From contig NZ_JADWYM010000006.1 of assembly GCF_022414535.1 (NCBI RefSeq), positions 62,001 to 126,000 of the forward strand: a DNA stretch of 64,000 nt, written 5' to 3'. The position numbers were made by a program, and so were the translations under genes. Source of the DNA: Streptomyces sp. MUM 2J. Its GTDB lineage: Bacteria; Actinomycetota; Actinomycetes; Streptomycetales; Streptomycetaceae. The first letter of the stretch is position 1. Each line of letters starts with the position of its first letter. Shown in pieces: positions 32,966-40,995 of this stretch. The notes beneath the pieces were generated by a model. The model was not told where the DNA came from, ran no database searches, and saw only the letters and a program-made list of their open reading frames with translations.

Positions 32966-33155
32966 AGGACCGCCGACCCCGTCGGCTCGCGCCGACGCCG
33001 TCTTCCCCCGGCCCCGGCGGGGCGGCGGTGGCGCCGTGGCCTGCCCGCCCGGCACCGCCCGCCGGCCCGTTGCCGTCGCGCGGACGGGTGGAGGACGCGG
33101 GCGCGAGGAGGAAGCCGACGCCCGCCCCGGGGGACCGCCCTGCAAGAATGGCGGA

Positions 33156-33851
33156 GTGACCCGCGCATCCCTGGACAAGCAGCCGCACGAAGTCGCCTCG
33201 ATGTTCGACGACGTGGCGGAACGGTACGACCTGACCAACGACGTGCTGTCCCTGGGCCAGACCCGGCTGTGGCGCAAGGAGGTGGCGGACGCCGTCGACG
33301 CCCGCCCGGCGCAGAAGGTCCTCGACCTCGCCGCCGGTACGGCCACCTCCTCGCTGCCCTTCGCCCGCACCGGGGCGTACGTCGTCCCCTGCGACTTCTC
33401 GCTCGGCATGCTCCAGGTCGGCAAGAAGCGGCACCCCTGGCTCCCGCTCACCGCGGGCGACGCCACCAGGCTGCCGTTCAGGGACGACACCTTCGACGCG
33501 GTGACGATCTCCTTCGGTCTGCGCAACGTGCAGGACACCGACACGGCGCTGAGCGAGATGCACCGGGTCACCCGGCCCGGTGGGCGCATCGTCATCTGCG
33601 AGTTCTCCCATCCGACCTGGGCGCCCTTCCGGACCGTCTACACCGAGTACCTGATGCGCGCCGTGCCGCCGGTCGCCCGCGCGGTGTCCTCCAACCCGGA
33701 CGCCTACGTCTACCTCGCCGAGTCCATCCGCGCCTGGCCCGACCAGCCGGCCCTCGCCCAGCGGCTGCAGAAGGCCGGCTGGACGAAGGTGGCCTGGCGG
33801 AACCTGACCGGCGGGATCGTCACCCTGCACCGCGGCTTCAAGGAGAGCTGA
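33156..33851 (+). CDS. menG: Demethylmenaquinone methyltransferase
   Basis: A 231-residue SAM-dependent methyltransferase of the UbiE/MenG family that performs the last ring methylation of menaquinone. Evidence includes [20 protein letters not shown] at the start, the SAM motif [13 protein letters not shown], and the UbiE signatures [10 protein letters not shown] and [11 protein letters not shown]. The GTG at 33156 has AAGAAT six bases before it and no clear ribosome binding site, so it may be leaderless. Followed by a GC-rich hairpin. It acts downstream of MqnP, MqnL and MqnM. Confidence 0.95.
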
Positions 33852-33857
33852 GGCCCT

Positions 33858-33900
33858 CCGGCTCCGCGGGGAGCGAGGCCCCTGCGCCGCGGGGAGCCGG
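33858..33900 (+). terminator. Hairpin after menG
   Basis: CCGGCTCC and GGAGCCGG form the outer stem, with GCGG/CCGC inside, starting 6 bases after the menG stop. This also separates it from the convergent PASTA gene. Confidence 0.55.
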
Positions 33901-33953
33901 AACGCGGCGGTGCCCGGGGCCGTGTCCCCCGCGGCGGTTCGGGGGCCGCGGCC

Positions 33954-34301
33954 TCAGGGGGAGCCGAGGATCACGTAGGGGTCGCCCGGTTCGTCCAGCT
34001 CCCGCCGCACCCCACCGTGGGGCGGAGGCGGCACGCGGGGCTCGCGCACGCCCCCGCCGCCCTCGCCCTCCCCGAAGCCGAACCACACGTACACCACGGA
34101 GTCGCGCGGCACCTCGGAGCCGGGCTGCGGGTACTGGCGCGTGACGTGGTCGACGACGGTGAGATGAAAGTCGGGCCGCTCGGGCGCGCTGACGAGGAGA
34201 CCCCGGGACAGGGCCGCCTGCCGTGCGTCGACGGCCATCAGCCCGACCAGCCTCGGCACGCGCACTTCGGGTGTCTCGGGTGTCATGGGCACGGACGTCA
34301 C
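33954..34301 (-). CDS. Small PASTA-domain protein
   Basis: A 115-residue protein with one PASTA domain (residues 14-74): VPRLVGLMAVDARQAALSRG, a central strand, then QYPQPGSEVPRDSVVYVWF. PASTA domains usually bind peptidoglycan or beta-lactams as part of kinases or penicillin-binding proteins. This one has no signal peptide or membrane helix, so its location is unclear. A Gly/Pro-rich tail follows. The start is GTG 34301 or ATG 34286 in frame, both behind the same G-rich stretch. Confidence 0.75.
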   Translation of the reverse strand: MTSVPMTPETPEVRVPRLVGLMAVDARQAALSRGLLVSAPERPDFHLTVVDHVTRQYPQPGSEVPRDSVVYVWFGFGEGEGGGGVREPRVPPPPHGGVRRELDEPGDPYVILGSP

Positions 34302-34385
34302 CCCCAGCGGTACCGGCAGGGTAGCCGTCCGCGCCCACCGCCCGGAAGGGCAAGGTGTCTTTCTGTGACAGTTGGTGACCGTCGG

Positions 34386-34892
34386 TCACAGATCCAGGCG
34401 GTAGCAGTGCCCCTGTCGCTGCGACGCCGGCGTCGTGAAGGTCTCCGCGCGCCGCATCCCCAGCCGTTCGGCGACCGCGATCGACCTCCGGTTGCGGGCG
34501 TCGACCATCGCCACCACGCCGTCCACGCCCGCCGTGCGCAGCCGTTCCAGCGTCATACGGGCCGCTGCGGTGACATAACCCCTGCCCCAGTACTCCCGGC
34601 CGAGCCGCCAGCCGATCTCCATCTCGCCCGCCGGACCCCACTCCCACGGCCAGGGCTGGGCGCCGGTGAACCCCATGACCCGGTCCTGCTCGTCCAGCAG
34701 CGTCCACAGGCAGAAGCCGCGCTCGGCGTCGTGCCGCCGCTGGCGGGCGGTGAGCTCCTCGTAGACGGACAGTTCGGCGGTCCTCCCGCCGTGGAACTCC
34801 ATGACGTCCGGGTGGTCGAAGACCCGGTGCCAGGCGACGGCGTCCTCGTCGGTGGGGACGCGCAGCCGTACCACGGGGAGAGTTCGGTTCAC
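34386..34892 (-). CDS. GNAT (RimJ/RimL-type) N-acetyltransferase
   Basis: A 168-residue protein with RimJ/RimL-type signatures: VRLRVPTDEDAVAWHRVF at the start, then EMEIGWRLGREYWGRGYVTAA (acetyl-CoA loop RGYVTAA) and a DARNRRSIAVAERLGMRR helix. It probably acetylates an N-terminus, small amine or antibiotic-like compound; the substrate is not deducible. The GTG at 34892 follows AAGGG by 7 bases. It is divergent from the flavoprotein gene at 34990. Confidence 0.87.
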   Translation of the reverse strand: MNRTLPVVRLRVPTDEDAVAWHRVFDHPDVMEFHGGRTAELSVYEELTARQRRHDAERGFCLWTLLDEQDRVMGFTGAQPWPWEWGPAGEMEIGWRLGREYWGRGYVTAAARMTLERLRTAGVDGVVAMVDARNRRSIAVAERLGMRRAETFTTPASQRQGHCYRLDL

Positions 34893-34989
34893 GGGGCAGC
34901 CCTTCAGCCGGTTGATCCATGCCGCTGAATAGACTGCCCATGTCCTGTGCCCGTCGGCACACGTATTTCGAACTTGGGGAGATCCCGCC

Positions 34990-36282
34990 GTGACCGTCGT
35001 GACCGAGCCCCTCTCCGAGAACACCGCCGATGTGATCGTCGTGGGCGCGGGCCCGGCCGGATCCACGACGGCGTACCACCTGGCGCGGGCCGGGCTCGAC
35101 GTGCTCCTCTTGGAGAAGACCGAGTTCCCGCGGGAGAAGGTCTGCGGCGACGGGCTCACGCCGCGGGCCGTCAAGCAGCTCGTGGCCATGGGCATCGACG
35201 TCTCCGAGGAGGCCGGCTGGCTGCGCAACAAGGGCCTGCGGATCATCGGCGGCGGCGTGCGCCTCCAGCTGGACTGGCCGGATCTCGCCTCCTTCCCCGA
35301 CTACGGCCTGGTCCGCAAGCGCGACGACTTCGACGAACAGCTCGCCCGTCAGGCGCAGAAGGCGGGGGCGCGGCTGTACGAGCGCTGCAACGTCTCCGGC
35401 CCGATCGTCGACGACCGCACCGGCCGCATCATCGGCGTGACCGCCAAGCTCGGCGAGGAGAAGCGCCCCGTCACCTTCCACGCGCCGCTGGTGGTCGCGG
35501 CCGACGGCAACTCCACCCGCCTGTCCCTGGCGATGGGGCTGCACCGCCGCGAGGACCGCCCGATGGGCGTGGCCGTCCGGACGTACTTCACCTCCCCGCG
35601 CCACGACGACGACTACCTGGAGTCCTGGCTGGAGCTGTGGGACCGGCGCGGGCCCCAGGACCGCCTCCTGCCCGGCTACGGCTGGATCTTCGGCATGGGC
35701 GACGGCACGTCCAATGTGGGCCTGGGCGTGCTCAACACCTCCGACTCCTTCAAGGAGCTGGACTGGCGCGAGGTCCTCAAGGCCTGGTGTGCCTCCATGC
35801 CGGAGGACTGGGGCTACACGCCCGAGAACATGACCGGCCCGATCCGCGGCGCGGCCCTTCCGATGGCCTTCAACCGCAAGCCCCACTACACGCGCGGACT
35901 GCTGCTGGTCGGCGACGCGGGCGGACTGGTGAACCCCTTCAACGGCGAGGGCATCGCCTATGCCATGGAGTCCGGGCAGCTCGCCGCCGACGTCATCGTC
36001 CAGGCCCACGCGCGGGCCACGCCCGGCCAGCGCGAACTCGCCCTCCAGGGCTACCCGCGCGTCCTGAAGGACACCTACGGCGGCTACTACACCCTGGGCC
36101 GCGCCTTCGTGAAGCTCATCGGCAACCCGAAGGTCATGCAGATCGCGGCCCAGCGCGGTCTGACCCATCCGCTGCTGATGAGGTTCACGCTCAAGCTCCT
36201 GGCCAACCTCACCGACCCGACGGGCGGCGACGCCATGGACCGCATCATCAACGGACTGAGCAAGGTGGCGCCCAAGGCCTGA
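34990..36282 (+). CDS. Geranylgeranyl-reductase family FAD oxidoreductase (MenJ-like candidate)
   Basis: A 430-residue flavoprotein with an N-terminal Rossmann motif (VIVVGAGPAGSTTAYHLARAG), a KVCGDGLTPRAVK segment typical of geranylgeranyl reductases, and the second FAD motif GLLLVGDAGGLVNPFNGEGI near residue 310. The family reduces isoprenoid double bonds. In mycobacteria the homologous MenJ, encoded near menG, saturates one isoprene unit of menaquinone; Streptomyces also contain partly saturated menaquinones. Its place between menG and nuoA supports that role by inference. The GTG at 34990 is preceded by GGGGAGA. Confidence 0.8.
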   Translation: MTVVTEPLSENTADVIVVGAGPAGSTTAYHLARAGLDVLLLEKTEFPREKVCGDGLTPRAVKQLVAMGIDVSEEAGWLRNKGLRIIGGGVRLQLDWPDLASFPDYGLVRKRDDFDEQLARQAQKAGARLYERCNVSGPIVDDRTGRIIGVTAKLGEEKRPVTFHAPLVVAADGNSTRLSLAMGLHRREDRPMGVAVRTYFTSPRHDDDYLESWLELWDRRGPQDRLLPGYGWIFGMGDGTSNVGLGVLNTSDSFKELDWREVLKAWCASMPEDWGYTPENMTGPIRGAALPMAFNRKPHYTRGLLLVGDAGGLVNPFNGEGIAYAMESGQLAADVIVQAHARATPGQRELALQGYPRVLKDTYGGYYTLGRAFVKLIGNPKVMQIAAQRGLTHPLLMRFTLKLLANLTDPTGGDAMDRIINGLSKVAPKA

Positions 36283-36314
36283 GCCCGGTACGCGGCTTGG
36301 GGGAGAGCCGACGA

Positions 36315-36343
36315 GGGCCGCAGCCCCCGAGCGGCTGCGGCCC
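36315..36343. terminator. Hairpin after the flavoprotein gene
   Basis: GGGCCGCAGCC and GGCTGCGGCCC are perfect 11-bp arms around a 7-base loop, 33 bases after the stop and before the opposing NlpC gene end. Confidence 0.7.
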
Positions 36344-36396
36344 TTCGCCGTACCCCGGTGATGCCCGCCCCGTCGCGCACGGGGCGGGGACGTGCG

Positions 36397-37218
36397 TCAG
36401 AGCACCCGCACCGCTCCCGACGGCGGGTCGTACGACAGCGGCTTCTCGACCACACCCGACGACGGGTTCTGCGCGCCGACGAACATGCCGCCGCCGACGT
36501 ACACCGCCACGTGGTACGCGCTGCCCGCGCCGCCCCAGTAGAGGATGTCGCCCGGCTGAAGGTTGTTCAGCGACACCTGCGTGCCGGCGGTGGACTGGGA
36601 CTGGGAGACCCGCGGCAGGTCGACGCCGACCTGCTTGAAGGCCGCCTGGACGAGTCCCGAGCAGTCCCAGGAGCTGGGGCCGGTGCCGCCGGAGACATAG
36701 GCGTCACCGACCTGCGCCTTCACGAAGGCGACCACCGTGGCGGCCGAACCCGTGGCCGTCGACGCGCTCGTGGAGGCGGTGGAGGCACTGGGGGCCGCGG
36801 GGGCGGCGAGGGTGGCCCGCCCGCTGCTGCGCGAGGCCCGCTCGGCGGCGACCCTGCGGGCGTCCTCCTCGGCCTTCTTCTTGGCCTCGGCCTCCTTCTT
36901 CTTGGCCTCGGCGAGGTTCTTCTCGGCCTGCTGCGCGGCCTTCGCCGCGGCTGCGTCCCGCTCCGCCTGCAGCTCGAAGTTGGCGGCGGCCAGCTGCGTG
37001 GCCTCCGCGGACTGGGCGACCTGGGCGGACAGGTCGGCCGTCAGGGTCGGCAGTTCGAGGGTCTGCGTCGTCTCGGACTCGGCGGCGCTCGCCGAAGCGG
37101 ACGCACCGGCCACTGCCAGGGTGCTGAGGACGCCACCGGCAACTCCGGCCCGCATCGCGATCTTCGACGCGCTGCGGCGGGGCTTCCGGTGGCTGCGTAT
37201 GTGAGCGGTGTGGGACAT
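36397..37218 (-). CDS. Secreted NlpC/P60 (C40) peptidase
   Basis: From ATG 37218 the product is 273 residues. It has a Sec-type signal (HRKPRRSASKIAMRAG then a hydrophobic stretch to ASASA), an Ala/Lys/Glu-rich coiled coil at about residues 55-130, and a C-terminal NlpC/P60 domain with catalytic Cys in SSWDCSGLV and His in YHVAVYVG. The domain hydrolyses D-Glu-diaminopimelate peptide bonds in the cell wall. In-frame starts at 37248 and 37275 exist but would lengthen the signal peptide. A hairpin lies at 37257-37281 just upstream. Confidence 0.9.
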   Translation of the reverse strand: MSHTAHIRSHRKPRRSASKIAMRAGVAGGVLSTLAVAGASASASAAESETTQTLELPTLTADLSAQVAQSAEATQLAAANFELQAERDAAAAKAAQQAEKNLAEAKKKEAEAKKKAEEDARRVAAERASRSSGRATLAAPAAPSASTASTSASTATGSAATVVAFVKAQVGDAYVSGGTGPSSWDCSGLVQAAFKQVGVDLPRVSQSQSTAGTQVSLNNLQPGDILYWGGAGSAYHVAVYVGGGMFVGAQNPSSGVVEKPLSYDPPSGAVRVL

Positions 37219-37256
37219 GGCTACAACGGGTATCAGGGGCTCCTCCATACCTTCAA

Positions 37257-37281
37257 GCAACGTGTGGTGCGCCACAGTTGC
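37257..37281 (-). promoter_or_regulatory. Hairpin in the leader of the NlpC/P60 gene
   Basis: GCAAC and TGTGG pair with CCACA and GTTGC around a 4-base loop, with one bulged base. It lies 39-63 bases before the chosen ATG and may influence translation or start-site choice. The sequence does not match the ydaO riboswitch that many actinobacterial wall hydrolase genes carry. Confidence 0.45.
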
Positions 37282-37476
37282 TCAACGGAAGCCCCGAATC
37301 CCGGGCGTGTTGTTTCTTATTGACGTCGTAACGGACATTGCGGACGTCCGCCAACACGCCTTTGATCACGTACTTTCGCCATTACGCCCGAAATGCCCCT
37401 CAACTACCACCGGTTGGGGTCGATGGCCAAGCCCGGTTCTCATGGGTCTCTCATCGATGTGGCCGAGGTCACGGAA

Positions 37477-37530
37477 CGGTCACCACTCCGGCCGCGTCCC
37501 GCGTGCGAGGTGCGGCCGGAGTGGTGACCG
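37477..37530. repeat. 19-bp perfect inverted repeat between nlpC-type gene and nuoA
   Basis: Arms CGGTCACCACTCCGGCCGC (37477-37495) and its exact complement (37512-37530) flank a 16-base loop. The element lies in a 766-bp gap (37219-37984) between divergently transcribed genes, so it is not at the end of any recognised gene. The rest of the gap holds a 14-bp palindrome (37555-37568), two GTGAACGCGT repeats and the nuo promoter, and no supported gene. Confidence 0.75.
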
Positions 37531-37859
37531 GATCGCGCCCGCCGGACTTCGTGAACGCGTGCACGCGTCCACATCGACCCACCCGGCTCCCCCTGACGTG
37601 TGAACGCGTCCTCTATCAAGGCACCGCATCCAGCACCAATTTGCATGCAGCGGAACTCTCTTGATATGGAGACGAACCCTCTGAGCTGCCATGACGAGCG
37701 AAAATGTCACCTCTGGTGATCACTCGGACGCTTCCTGTGCGAAGATCACCGCTCATCCGACTTCATGATCCTTCGTCAGGTGGTGGAGATCACAAAGCTC
37801 GTGCAATACCCCGTGTCGCAGATCACAGACCTGCGGGCATAAGATGCACGCGGTTGGGC

Positions 37860-37877
37860 TTGTGACCTGCTTCACAT
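37860..37877 (+). promoter_or_regulatory. Rex-type operator in nuo promoter region
   Basis: TTGTGA-CCTGC-TTCACA-T matches the Rex operator consensus (TTGTGAA-N4-TTCACAA) at all conserved positions except two. It also fits the CRP pattern TGTGA-N6-TCACA. A -10-like TAAGAT at 37840-37845 would start transcription near 37851, placing the operator just downstream, a repressing position. Rex is an NADH/NAD+ sensor reported to control nuo in S. coelicolor. Confidence 0.65.
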
Positions 37878-37984
37878 GTTCTCGATCTTCGCCGGGGCGG
37901 GCGGGGTTCGAGGGGCTGACGAGGCAGGTGTGAGCCCGATGCAAACCGCCAGCAGTCAGTGCCGACTGAGAGGAGCGAGGAGCG

Positions 37985-38344
37985 GTGAACGCGTATGCGC
38001 CCATCCTCGTACTGGGAGCCCTCGGGGCAGGCTTTGCGATCTTCTCCGTGGTCATGGCCACGCTGATCGGTCCGAAGCGGTACAACCGCGCCAAGCTCGA
38101 AGCCTACGAGTGCGGTATCGAGCCGACCCCCACGCCGGCCGGCGGCGGGCGCTTCCCCATCAAGTACTACCTGACGGCGATGCTCTTCATCGTCTTCGAC
38201 ATCGAGATCGTCTTCCTCTACCCGTGGGCCGTCACCTTCGACGCCCTGGGTGTGTTCGGGCTCGTGGAGATGTTGCTCTTCGTGCTCACCGTCTTCGTCG
38301 CCTACGCCTACGTGTGGCGGCGCGGCGGCCTGGAATGGGACTGA
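37985..38344 (+). CDS. nuoA: NADH-quinone oxidoreductase subunit A
   Basis: The 119-residue membrane subunit of respiratory complex I has three helices and the conserved acidic loop [23 protein letters not shown], part of the quinone-channel gating region. First gene of a complete 14-gene operon in which nearly every junction overlaps. The GTG at 37985 follows AGGAGCGAGGAG, a strong ribosome binding site. The operon probably begins at the promoter near 37840 under Rex control. Confidence 0.97.
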
Positions 38345-38357
38345 GGGGCCTTACGAC

Positions 38358-38908
<551 letters not shown>

Positions 38909-38912
<4 letters not shown>

Positions 38913-39649
38913 GTGACGCCCAAGGCAACGGGGTCAACCCCGAGAAGGACCTCAGCGCGTCGAACCTGCCGGGCCAGCGCGGCCAGGGCGGCGAGGAGAT
39001 CCGCGTCCAGCGCGGCATGTTCGGAGCCGCGGGCGGCGGCGACACCTCGGGCTACGGCGGGCTGGTCCGCTCGGTCAGGCTGCCGGGACCGGCGAGCCGG
39101 CCCTACGGCGGCTGGTTCGACGAGGTCGCCGACGAACTCGAGGGCGCACTGGAGGAGCAGGGCCTGCTCGCCGGCAACGCCATCGAGAAGACGGTCGTCG
39201 ACCGCGACGAACTCACCTTCCACATCGAACGCGAGCACCTCGTCCGCGTCGCCCGCACCCTGCGCGACGACCCGGCCCTGCGCTTCGAACTGTGCACCGG
39301 CGTCAGCGGCGTCCACTACCCGCACGACAAGGGCCGCGAGCTGCACGCCGTCTACCACCTGCGCTCGATCACCCACAACCGGCTCATCCGCCTGGAAGTC
39401 AGCGCCCCCGACAGCGACCCGCGCATCCCGTCGCTGTGCTCCGTCTATCCGACGAACGACTGGCACGAGCGCGAGACCTACGACTTCTTCGGCATCGTCT
39501 TCGACGGTCATCCGGCCCTGACGCGGATCATGATGCCGGACGACTGGCAGGGCCACCCGCAGCGCAAGGACTACCCCCTCGGCGGCATCGCCGTCGAGTA
39601 CAAGGGCGCCCAGATCCCGGCTCCGGACCAGCGGAGGTCGTACTCGTGA
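38909..39649 (+). CDS. nuoC: NADH-quinone oxidoreductase subunit C
   Basis: A 246-residue peripheral-arm subunit of complex I, separate from NuoD here and not fused as in E. coli. The 30-kDa subunit signature is seen in [20 protein letters not shown] and, more strongly, in the [16 protein letters not shown] motif. About 60 N-terminal residues are polar and Gly/Gln rich before the domain begins. The GTG at 38909 overlaps the nuoB stop by 4 bases, and the nuoD GTG overlaps its own stop. Confidence 0.96.
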
Positions 39650-40995
39650 GCACTTCCCACGCATCCGACGCCCCGGCGGCCTCCGCCGCCTCGGCACGCG
39701 AGACCACCGAGGGCACCGTCTACACGGTCACCGGCGGCGACTGGGACGAGGTCGTCCAGTCCGCGGCCCGTGCCGACGACGAACGCATCGTCGTCAACAT
39801 GGGTCCGCAGCATCCGTCCACCCACGGGGTGCTGCGCCTGATCCTGGAGATCGAGGGCGAGACGGTCACCGAGGCCCGCTGCGGTATCGGCTACCTCCAC
39901 ACCGGCATCGAGAAGAACCTCGAGTACCGGACCTGGACGCAGGGCACCACGTTCGTGACGCGCATGGACTACCTGACGTCCTTCTTCAACGAGACCGCCT
40001 ACTGCCTCGCCGTCGAGAGGCTCCTCGGCATCGAGGACGACATCACCGAACGGGCAAAGATCATCCGGGTGCTCCTGATGGAGCTGAACCGGTTGTCCTC
40101 CCACCTGGTGTGCATCGCCACCGGCGGCATGGAGCTCGGCGCGACCACGATCATGATCTACGGGTTCCGTGACCGCGAGATGATCCTGGACCTCTACGAG
40201 CTCATCACCGGCCTGCGGATGAACCACGCGTACATCCGTCCCGGTGGACTCGCCCAGGATCTGCCGCCCGGTGCGGTCGACCAGATCCGCGAGTTCGTCA
40301 AGAAGATGAAGAAGAACCTCCCGGAGTACGACAAGCTCGCCACCGGGAACCCCATCTTCAAGGCCCGCATGCAGGACATCGGCTACCTCGACCTGGCCGG
40401 CTGCATGGCCCTCGGCGCCACGGGACCCATCCTGCGCGCCACCGGCCTGCCGCACGACCTGCGCAAGTCCCAGCCGTACTGCGACTACGAGACGTACGAC
40501 TTCGACGTCCCGACCGCCGACAGCTGCGACTCCTACGGCCGCTTCCTGATCCGCCTGGAGGAGATGCGCCAGTCGCTCCGGATCGTCGAGCAGTGCCTGG
40601 ACCGGCTCCAGCCCGGCCCGGTCATGGTCGCCGACAAGAAGATCGCCTGGCCCGCCCAGCTCGCCCTGGGACCCGACGGGCTCGGCAACTCCCTCGACCA
40701 CATCAAGAAGATCATGGGCACCTCCATGGAGGCCCTGATCCACCACTTCAAGCTGGTGACCGAGGGTTTCCGCGTACCGCCGGGACAGGCGTACGCGGCG
40801 GTCGAGTCGCCCAAGGGCGAGCTCGGCGTGCACGCCGTCTCCGACGGCGGCACCCGTCCCTACCGGGTCCACTTCCGCGACCCGTCCTTCACCAACCTGC
40901 AAGCCATGGCGGCGATGTGCGAGGGCGGCCAGGTCGCCGACGTCATCGTCGCCGTCGCGTCCATCGACCCCGTGATGGGAGGCGTCGACCGGTGA
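39646..40995 (+). CDS. nuoD: NADH-quinone oxidoreductase subunit D
   Basis: The 449-residue 49-kDa subunit forms the quinone pocket with NuoB. Visible signatures are [15 protein letters not shown] near residue 50, the [16 protein letters not shown] quinone-side loop, MNRLSSHL and the C-terminal MGGVDR end. A roughly 40-residue Ala/Ser/Thr-rich N-terminal extension precedes the conserved domain. The GTG at 39646 overlaps the nuoC stop, and its own TGA overlaps the nuoE GTG. Confidence 0.97.

Follow-up and report, generated by a model that had tools for sequence, protein, structure and literature searches.

The nuo (complex I) operon of this Streptomyces genome is preceded by a Rex operator that was previously known from S. 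avermitilis, and the architecture around it is the part added here. Three elements are at the centre of this architecture in the window, the whole 64-kb stretch of DNA analysed:

37860-37877, forward strand: Rex operator (ROP) TTGTGACCTGCTTCACAT, recognised from its sequence; the same 18-mer was footprinted in S. avermitilis nuoA1 (PMC5355995)
37840-37845, forward strand: TAAGAT, the -10 of the presumed main nuo promoter; TANNNT is kept in relatives and the start is expected at about 37852
37985-38344, forward strand: nuoA (complex I chain 3), with a GTG start, at the head of the nuo operon (PF00507, E 2.5e-36)

We consider it very probable that Rex, when bound at 37860-37877 directly past the main promoter (-10 TAAGAT, start at about 37852), would stop RNA polymerase from starting at, or leaving, the nuo promoter, and that a rise in NADH would take Rex off the operator and allow complex I to be made. 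The main start would accordingly be upstream of the operator, and the block would act at or just after initiation rather than by masking of a -35. A further regulator of the nuo promoter probably binds at 37812-37827, where there is a second, conserved palindrome.

Compared to the Streptomyces Rex consensus TTGTGAANNNNTTCACAA, the operator TTGTGACCTGCTTCACAT agrees at 12 of the 14 fixed bases. The two mismatches are found at position 7 (C for A) and position 18 (T for A), and the agreement becomes 16 of 18, as given by a sequence-only reading of this DNA, if the four N are scored as matches. The consensus is its own reverse complement, and TTGTGACCTGCTTCACAT is the only site with up to two mismatches in the 64-kb window. 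In 60 first-order Markov shuffles of the window such sites did not appear at all, and those with up to three mismatches appeared at 0.13 per shuffle. The operator claimed upstream of nuoA is therefore real. The pattern TTGTGANCTGCNTCACAT is present in 283/295 Streptomyces genomes including that of the window (matches anywhere in the genome were counted), the reversed-pattern control giving 0. Eleven of the 12 Streptomyces genomes without it have a near variant upstream of nuoA, and the remaining genome, which is 79% complete, has no NuoA match. There is hardly any chance that the 18-mer is a palindrome without function, given that the same sequence was footprinted with Rex in S. avermitilis (PMC5355995) and that the pattern recurs across the genus; we reject a chance origin on the shuffles and the 283 genomes.

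The naming of Rex as the binder of TTGTGACCTGCTTCACAT agrees with published work. The Rex footprint in the S. avermitilis nuoA1 promoter covers an identical 18-mer (Liu et al. 2017, PMC5355995), Rex binding to this promoter was found by EMSA and ChIP-PCR, and deletion of rex resulted in higher nuoA1 expression, i.e. in derepression. Operators with one to three mismatches are bound by Rex in this species as well (PMC5355995). The S. avermitilis nuoA1-N1 case (PMC5355995) shares the identical 18-mer, the operon, and the genus with the window, whose genome also encodes a Rex protein: there is one rex match above cut-off (C6:12335-12955, NF003995), with the domains Put_DNA-bind_N and CoA_binding. 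Rex repression of nuo is thus well supported. We infer that NADH would induce nuo inside the cell; the release of Rex by NADH was assayed on the S. avermitilis cydA1 promoter, which is another operator, and under oxygen limitation the rise of nuoA1 was slight and alike in wild type and rex mutant (PMC5355995).

The whole genome of 7.34 Mb contains 12 Rex sites with up to two mismatches, and the reversed-pattern control contains one. Their Pfam-backed neighbours are rex, cydA, hppA, and a pyridine-nucleotide oxidoreductase, which we take to be ndh-like. An atpI gene without Pfam match is assigned by appearance only, and the only ground for wblE is an 18-mer that agrees fully with the published one (PMC5355995). 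A pyruvate formate-lyase-like gene (PF02901) has a perfect Rex consensus about 110 bases ahead of it (G000:C2:281188-281205); this attracts attention in a genus described as obligate aerobes (PMC5355995). A COX15-CtaA family gene (PF02628) has a Rex-type site with two mismatches at its start (G000:C4:122301-122318). Within the window, a weaker Rex-like palindrome, TCGTGAACGCGTGCACGC, is present at 37549-37566 on the side of the divergent NlpC/P60 gene. Sites with up to four mismatches are found 260-700 bases upstream of nuoA in 44/71 Streptomycetaceae rows, compared to 2/71 in the reversed control.

The comparison within the family is based on 151 Streptomycetaceae rows, which consist of 80 record-derived loci (the best 80 of 586) and 71 rows from other genomes. 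The record-derived loci are all titled Streptomyces except for two from Kitasatospora, and the genome rows comprise 21 Streptomyces, the window genome among them, and 50 from other Streptomycetaceae genera; species may be common to both sets. G315, one of the 61 family genomes, has only a fragment at a contig end and was not included. The class set had 79 genomes, 76 with a NuoA match, from which five of the window's genus and one at a contig end (G413) were excluded, leaving 70; for 10 of these 70, the upstream stretch is shorter than 3.18 kb, down to 509 bases. A second full-length NuoA match in G349 is outside the comparison, and paralogues of the nuo2 type were excluded from the rows. The window genome (G000) itself has two more NuoA-like matches, G000:C3:173977-174213 and G000:C6:143818-144165. 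The latter, about 44 kb from nuoA, may belong to a nuo2 cluster like the one known from S. coelicolor (PMC9239103). The nearest relatives of the window locus on contig C6 by NuoA are Streptomyces among the best 80 of 586 loci. The nuoA starts in relatives were taken from the NuoA alignment, and the operator in family rows is the TTGTGAN6TCACA[AT] match nearest to nuoA; in two rows, L181 and L184, another stretch further upstream scores equally on the Rex consensus. So defined, the operator is found at most 420 bases upstream of nuoA in 151/151 rows (including the best 80 of 586 loci). A Rex site with up to two mismatches is present within 3.2 kb upstream of nuoA in 56 of the 70 class genomes outside the family; the reversed-sequence control gives 0/70. 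The other 14 have no such site in the searched stretch, and because just two of these 14 stretches are short (<1.9 kb), most are real absences in the stretch or reflect more divergent sites.

In the window, the order upstream of nuoA is CGTGTCGCAGATCACA at 37812-37827, TAAGAT at 37840-37845, and TTGTGACCTGCTTCACAT at 37860-37877, with 14 bases between the -10 and the operator and 107 bases between the operator and the start of nuoA. A start seven bases past TAAGAT, at about 37852, places the beginning of the operator near +9, close to the 10 bases past the predicted start that had been proposed. A single TANNNT is found 16-24 bases before the operator in 151/151 Streptomycetaceae rows (TAGGAT in 94, TAAGAT in 55, TAGCAT and TAGTAT in one each; the best 80 of 586 loci are included). 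In the other families of the class, where it is mostly TAGACT or TACACT, TANNNT is present 12-29 bases before the operator in 51 of the 56 operator-bearing rows, compared to 1/56 in each of two control windows. S. avermitilis cydA1, with its footprint at -3 to +25, provides a known case of the operator position suggested here for nuo, just past the start (PMC5355995).

The published mapping of the nuoA1 start in S. avermitilis, in contrast, places the Rex footprint at -42 to -16, over the -35 (PMC5355995). Hence the start there is downstream of the operator, unlike the upstream start to which our comparative data point. Transferred to the window, this model would have the following elements:

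37883-37888, forward strand: CGATCT, the hexamer 17 bases past TTGTGA and the expected -10 of an S. avermitilis-type start; it agrees with TATAAT at one of six positions by eye
37893-37902, forward strand: the start range on transferring the S. avermitilis distance, computed from the footprint at -42 to -16 that holds the 18-mer

TTGTGA would then be the -35 of a downstream promoter and Rex would bar the binding of the polymerase. Besides the start mapping and the footprint (PMC5355995), the model could draw on CGATC, which is found within 16 bases past the operator in 77/80 record-derived rows, almost all of them Streptomyces (the best 80 of 586 loci), and past the operator in 14/21 further Streptomyces rows. 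However, CGATC is found in just 17/50 rows of other Streptomycetaceae genera, CGATCT is poor as a -10, and it is the upstream -10 that is kept across the Streptomycetaceae and in 51/56 operator-bearing rows of other families. There is also no room for a downstream start in row L178, where only 15 bases separate the operator's end from nuoA (start codon as in the NuoA alignment). We regard it as unlikely that the Rex operator covers the -35 of a promoter further downstream, and the comparison favours a start upstream of the operator, although the mapping in one species (PMC5355995) still stands against it. The simplest reading would be that the older layout has the operator at the start or immediately past it, and that the S. 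avermitilis mapping picked up a second start or a processed transcript end. The sequence-only reading had seen a blocking position after the start, which the comparative anatomy of TANNNT supports and the S. avermitilis mapping at -42 to -16 does not (PMC5355995). It had also held that a start downstream of 37877 would speak against it. Literally, the single S. avermitilis experiment is such a case, but the criterion was poorly chosen, as repression would also result from a Rex site over the -35. The main text of another paper, PMC4681348, has no mention of nuo. Past the operator, GATCTT at 37884-37889 fits GATC(A/T)T, the motif of the nucleoid protein Gbn (PMC9239103).

The place of the promoter beside nuoA differs from that in many other families of the class. 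Two genes precede the promoter in the window:

34990-36282, forward strand: FAD-dependent reductase gene, presumably of the geranylgeranyl-reductase type; many genomes outside the family have a relative of it ahead of nuoA
36397-37275, reverse strand: NlpC/P60 gene (PF00877), divergent, between the reductase gene and nuoA

Of the 56 operator-bearing rows outside the family, 48 have the operator 1.36-1.83 kb upstream of nuoA and ahead of an intervening reductase gene, and the other eight have it within about 0.2 kb of nuoA. In 16/71 Streptomycetaceae rows the reductase gene is upstream and the stretch has no NlpC/P60 match while the operator is still beside nuoA. Therefore, the promoter's place beside nuoA is independent of the NlpC/P60 gene. 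Many stretches are just 1.5 kb long, so that an absent reductase gene means little there. A riboswitch or other known RNA near the intergenic region between NlpC/P60 and nuoA was rejected because a scan of 33000-40000 against Rfam gave nothing at gathering score. For the regulator RsrR, a ChIP site is known in S. venezuelae within the nuo operon, upstream of nuoH (PMC5015018).

A further palindrome cannot be separated from the Rex site by sequence:

37861-37876, forward strand: perfect CRP-type palindrome TGTGAN6TCACA within the Rex operator

This pattern is observed once compared to 0.017 expected per 64 kb, and its presence in the operator had led to the proposal of dual control by Rex and CRP at the same bases. 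The pattern stood, while dual control at this place became weak. That the operator is common to Rex and a CRP-family protein could be argued from the perfect palindrome, from TTGTGA/TCACA being present in 151/151 Streptomycetaceae rows (including the best 80 of 586 loci), and from the eight HTH_Crp_2 matches that the genome has above cut-off, of which one passes only together with its neighbours. On the other hand, Rex alone suffices for the site, and the motif of S. coelicolor Crp (SCO3571), GTG(N)6GNCAC (Gao 2012 as quoted in PMC10033298), is present at the operator in only 70/151 rows (including the best 80 of 586 loci) and is thus not kept across relatives. In addition, the literature searched, which did not extend to the 393-target list of Gao 2012, yielded no Crp binding at nuo. 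A shared operator is therefore a rather remote prospect, and CRP control at the bases bound by Rex is demoted to a weak candidate.

A better candidate for a second regulator, and thus for dual control, would be the upstream palindrome:

37812-37827, forward strand: conserved palindromic box CGTGTCGCAGATCACA at the place of the -35, candidate site of a second regulator; CGTGTCN5TCACA in relatives

CGTGTCN5TCACA occurs once upstream of the operator in 151/151 Streptomycetaceae rows and is exactly 12 bases from the -10 in all of them; CGTGTC and TCACA are present in every row while the five inner bases vary in 12 (the best 80 of 586 loci being included in each count). Fixed outer and variable inner bases are more expected from the site of a dimeric protein than from a -35, and the box is probably bound by another regulator of the nuo promoter. 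GTGTCN5TCACA is absent from the 56 operator-bearing rows outside the Streptomycetaceae, and the box-plus--10 arrangement has its only match in the genome at the nuo promoter, which rules out a regulon of this arrangement. The box could be a Crp-type site and the operator a site of Rex only, the two inputs thus acting on separate elements. The box fits the S. coelicolor Crp (SCO3571) motif GTG(N)6GNCAC (PMC10033298) on the reverse strand in 151/151 rows, and the 12-base distance to the -10 and the invariant CGTGTC/TCACA around inner bases that differ in 12 rows are also in its favour (all including the best 80 of 586 loci). However, this motif is loose, with 23 matches on both strands of the 64-kb window, and the combination of box and -10 is found at no other promoter of the genome. 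Furthermore, about 20 bases separate the centre of the box from the -10, some nine fewer than at a classical class II CRP site, and in this respect the box is unlike the classical CRP activator site. The site of another protein, a repressor site, or an unusual -35 are the alternatives, and Crp at the box is a possibility to be taken seriously, if not the one we would expect.

The operator itself is peculiar in its two halves. In S. avermitilis cydA1 both halves match GTGAA/TTCAC (PMC5355995), whereas exactly one half is perfect at nuo in 151/151 Streptomycetaceae rows. Both halves are perfect in 0/151 of these rows compared to 53/56 outside the family (the family rows including the best 80 of 586 loci), and TTGTGAACTGCTTCACAT is found in none of the 295 Streptomyces genomes. 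In a quick tree built on 540 bases, no more than three changes fall on operator positions 7 and 12, so that few independent events are behind the half-site count. The rex and atpI operators of S. avermitilis likewise have one imperfect half (PMC5355995), and the half-perfect pattern is thus not special to nuo. Selection for a weakened, half-broken nuo operator is suggestive only. We found no earlier account of the class-wide geometry, the rigid second box, or the half-perfect pattern in the literature searched. The comparative study of the Rex regulon by Ravcheev in 2012 reportedly may already include nuo in actinomycetes, and because it may cover the nuo geometry, priority is not claimed. Either a strong affinity of Rex at nuo or another regulator of complex I besides Rex has been proposed before (PMC8981147). 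The sub-consensus operator speaks mildly against the first option, and the box is a candidate in favour of the second.

More speculatively, and with more doubt than confidence, the Streptomycetaceae may have rebuilt the nuo promoter by placing it directly at nuoA, with a palindrome replacing the -35 and a Rex operator of less than full strength. With one perfect half-site and the palindrome of a second regulator, complex I would answer to NADH and to another signal. A Rex-controlled promoter before a reductase-nuo unit is what many other families of the class have instead. Complex I is one of the chief points at which NADH electrons enter respiration, and Rex would couple its supply to the NADH/NAD+ ratio. 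Many families of the class share the layout with the operator after the start, and both the start site and the mechanism published for nuo are called into question by the comparative data. The rigidly conserved box would be a concrete candidate for the site of the second complex I regulator that has been asked about (PMC8981147).
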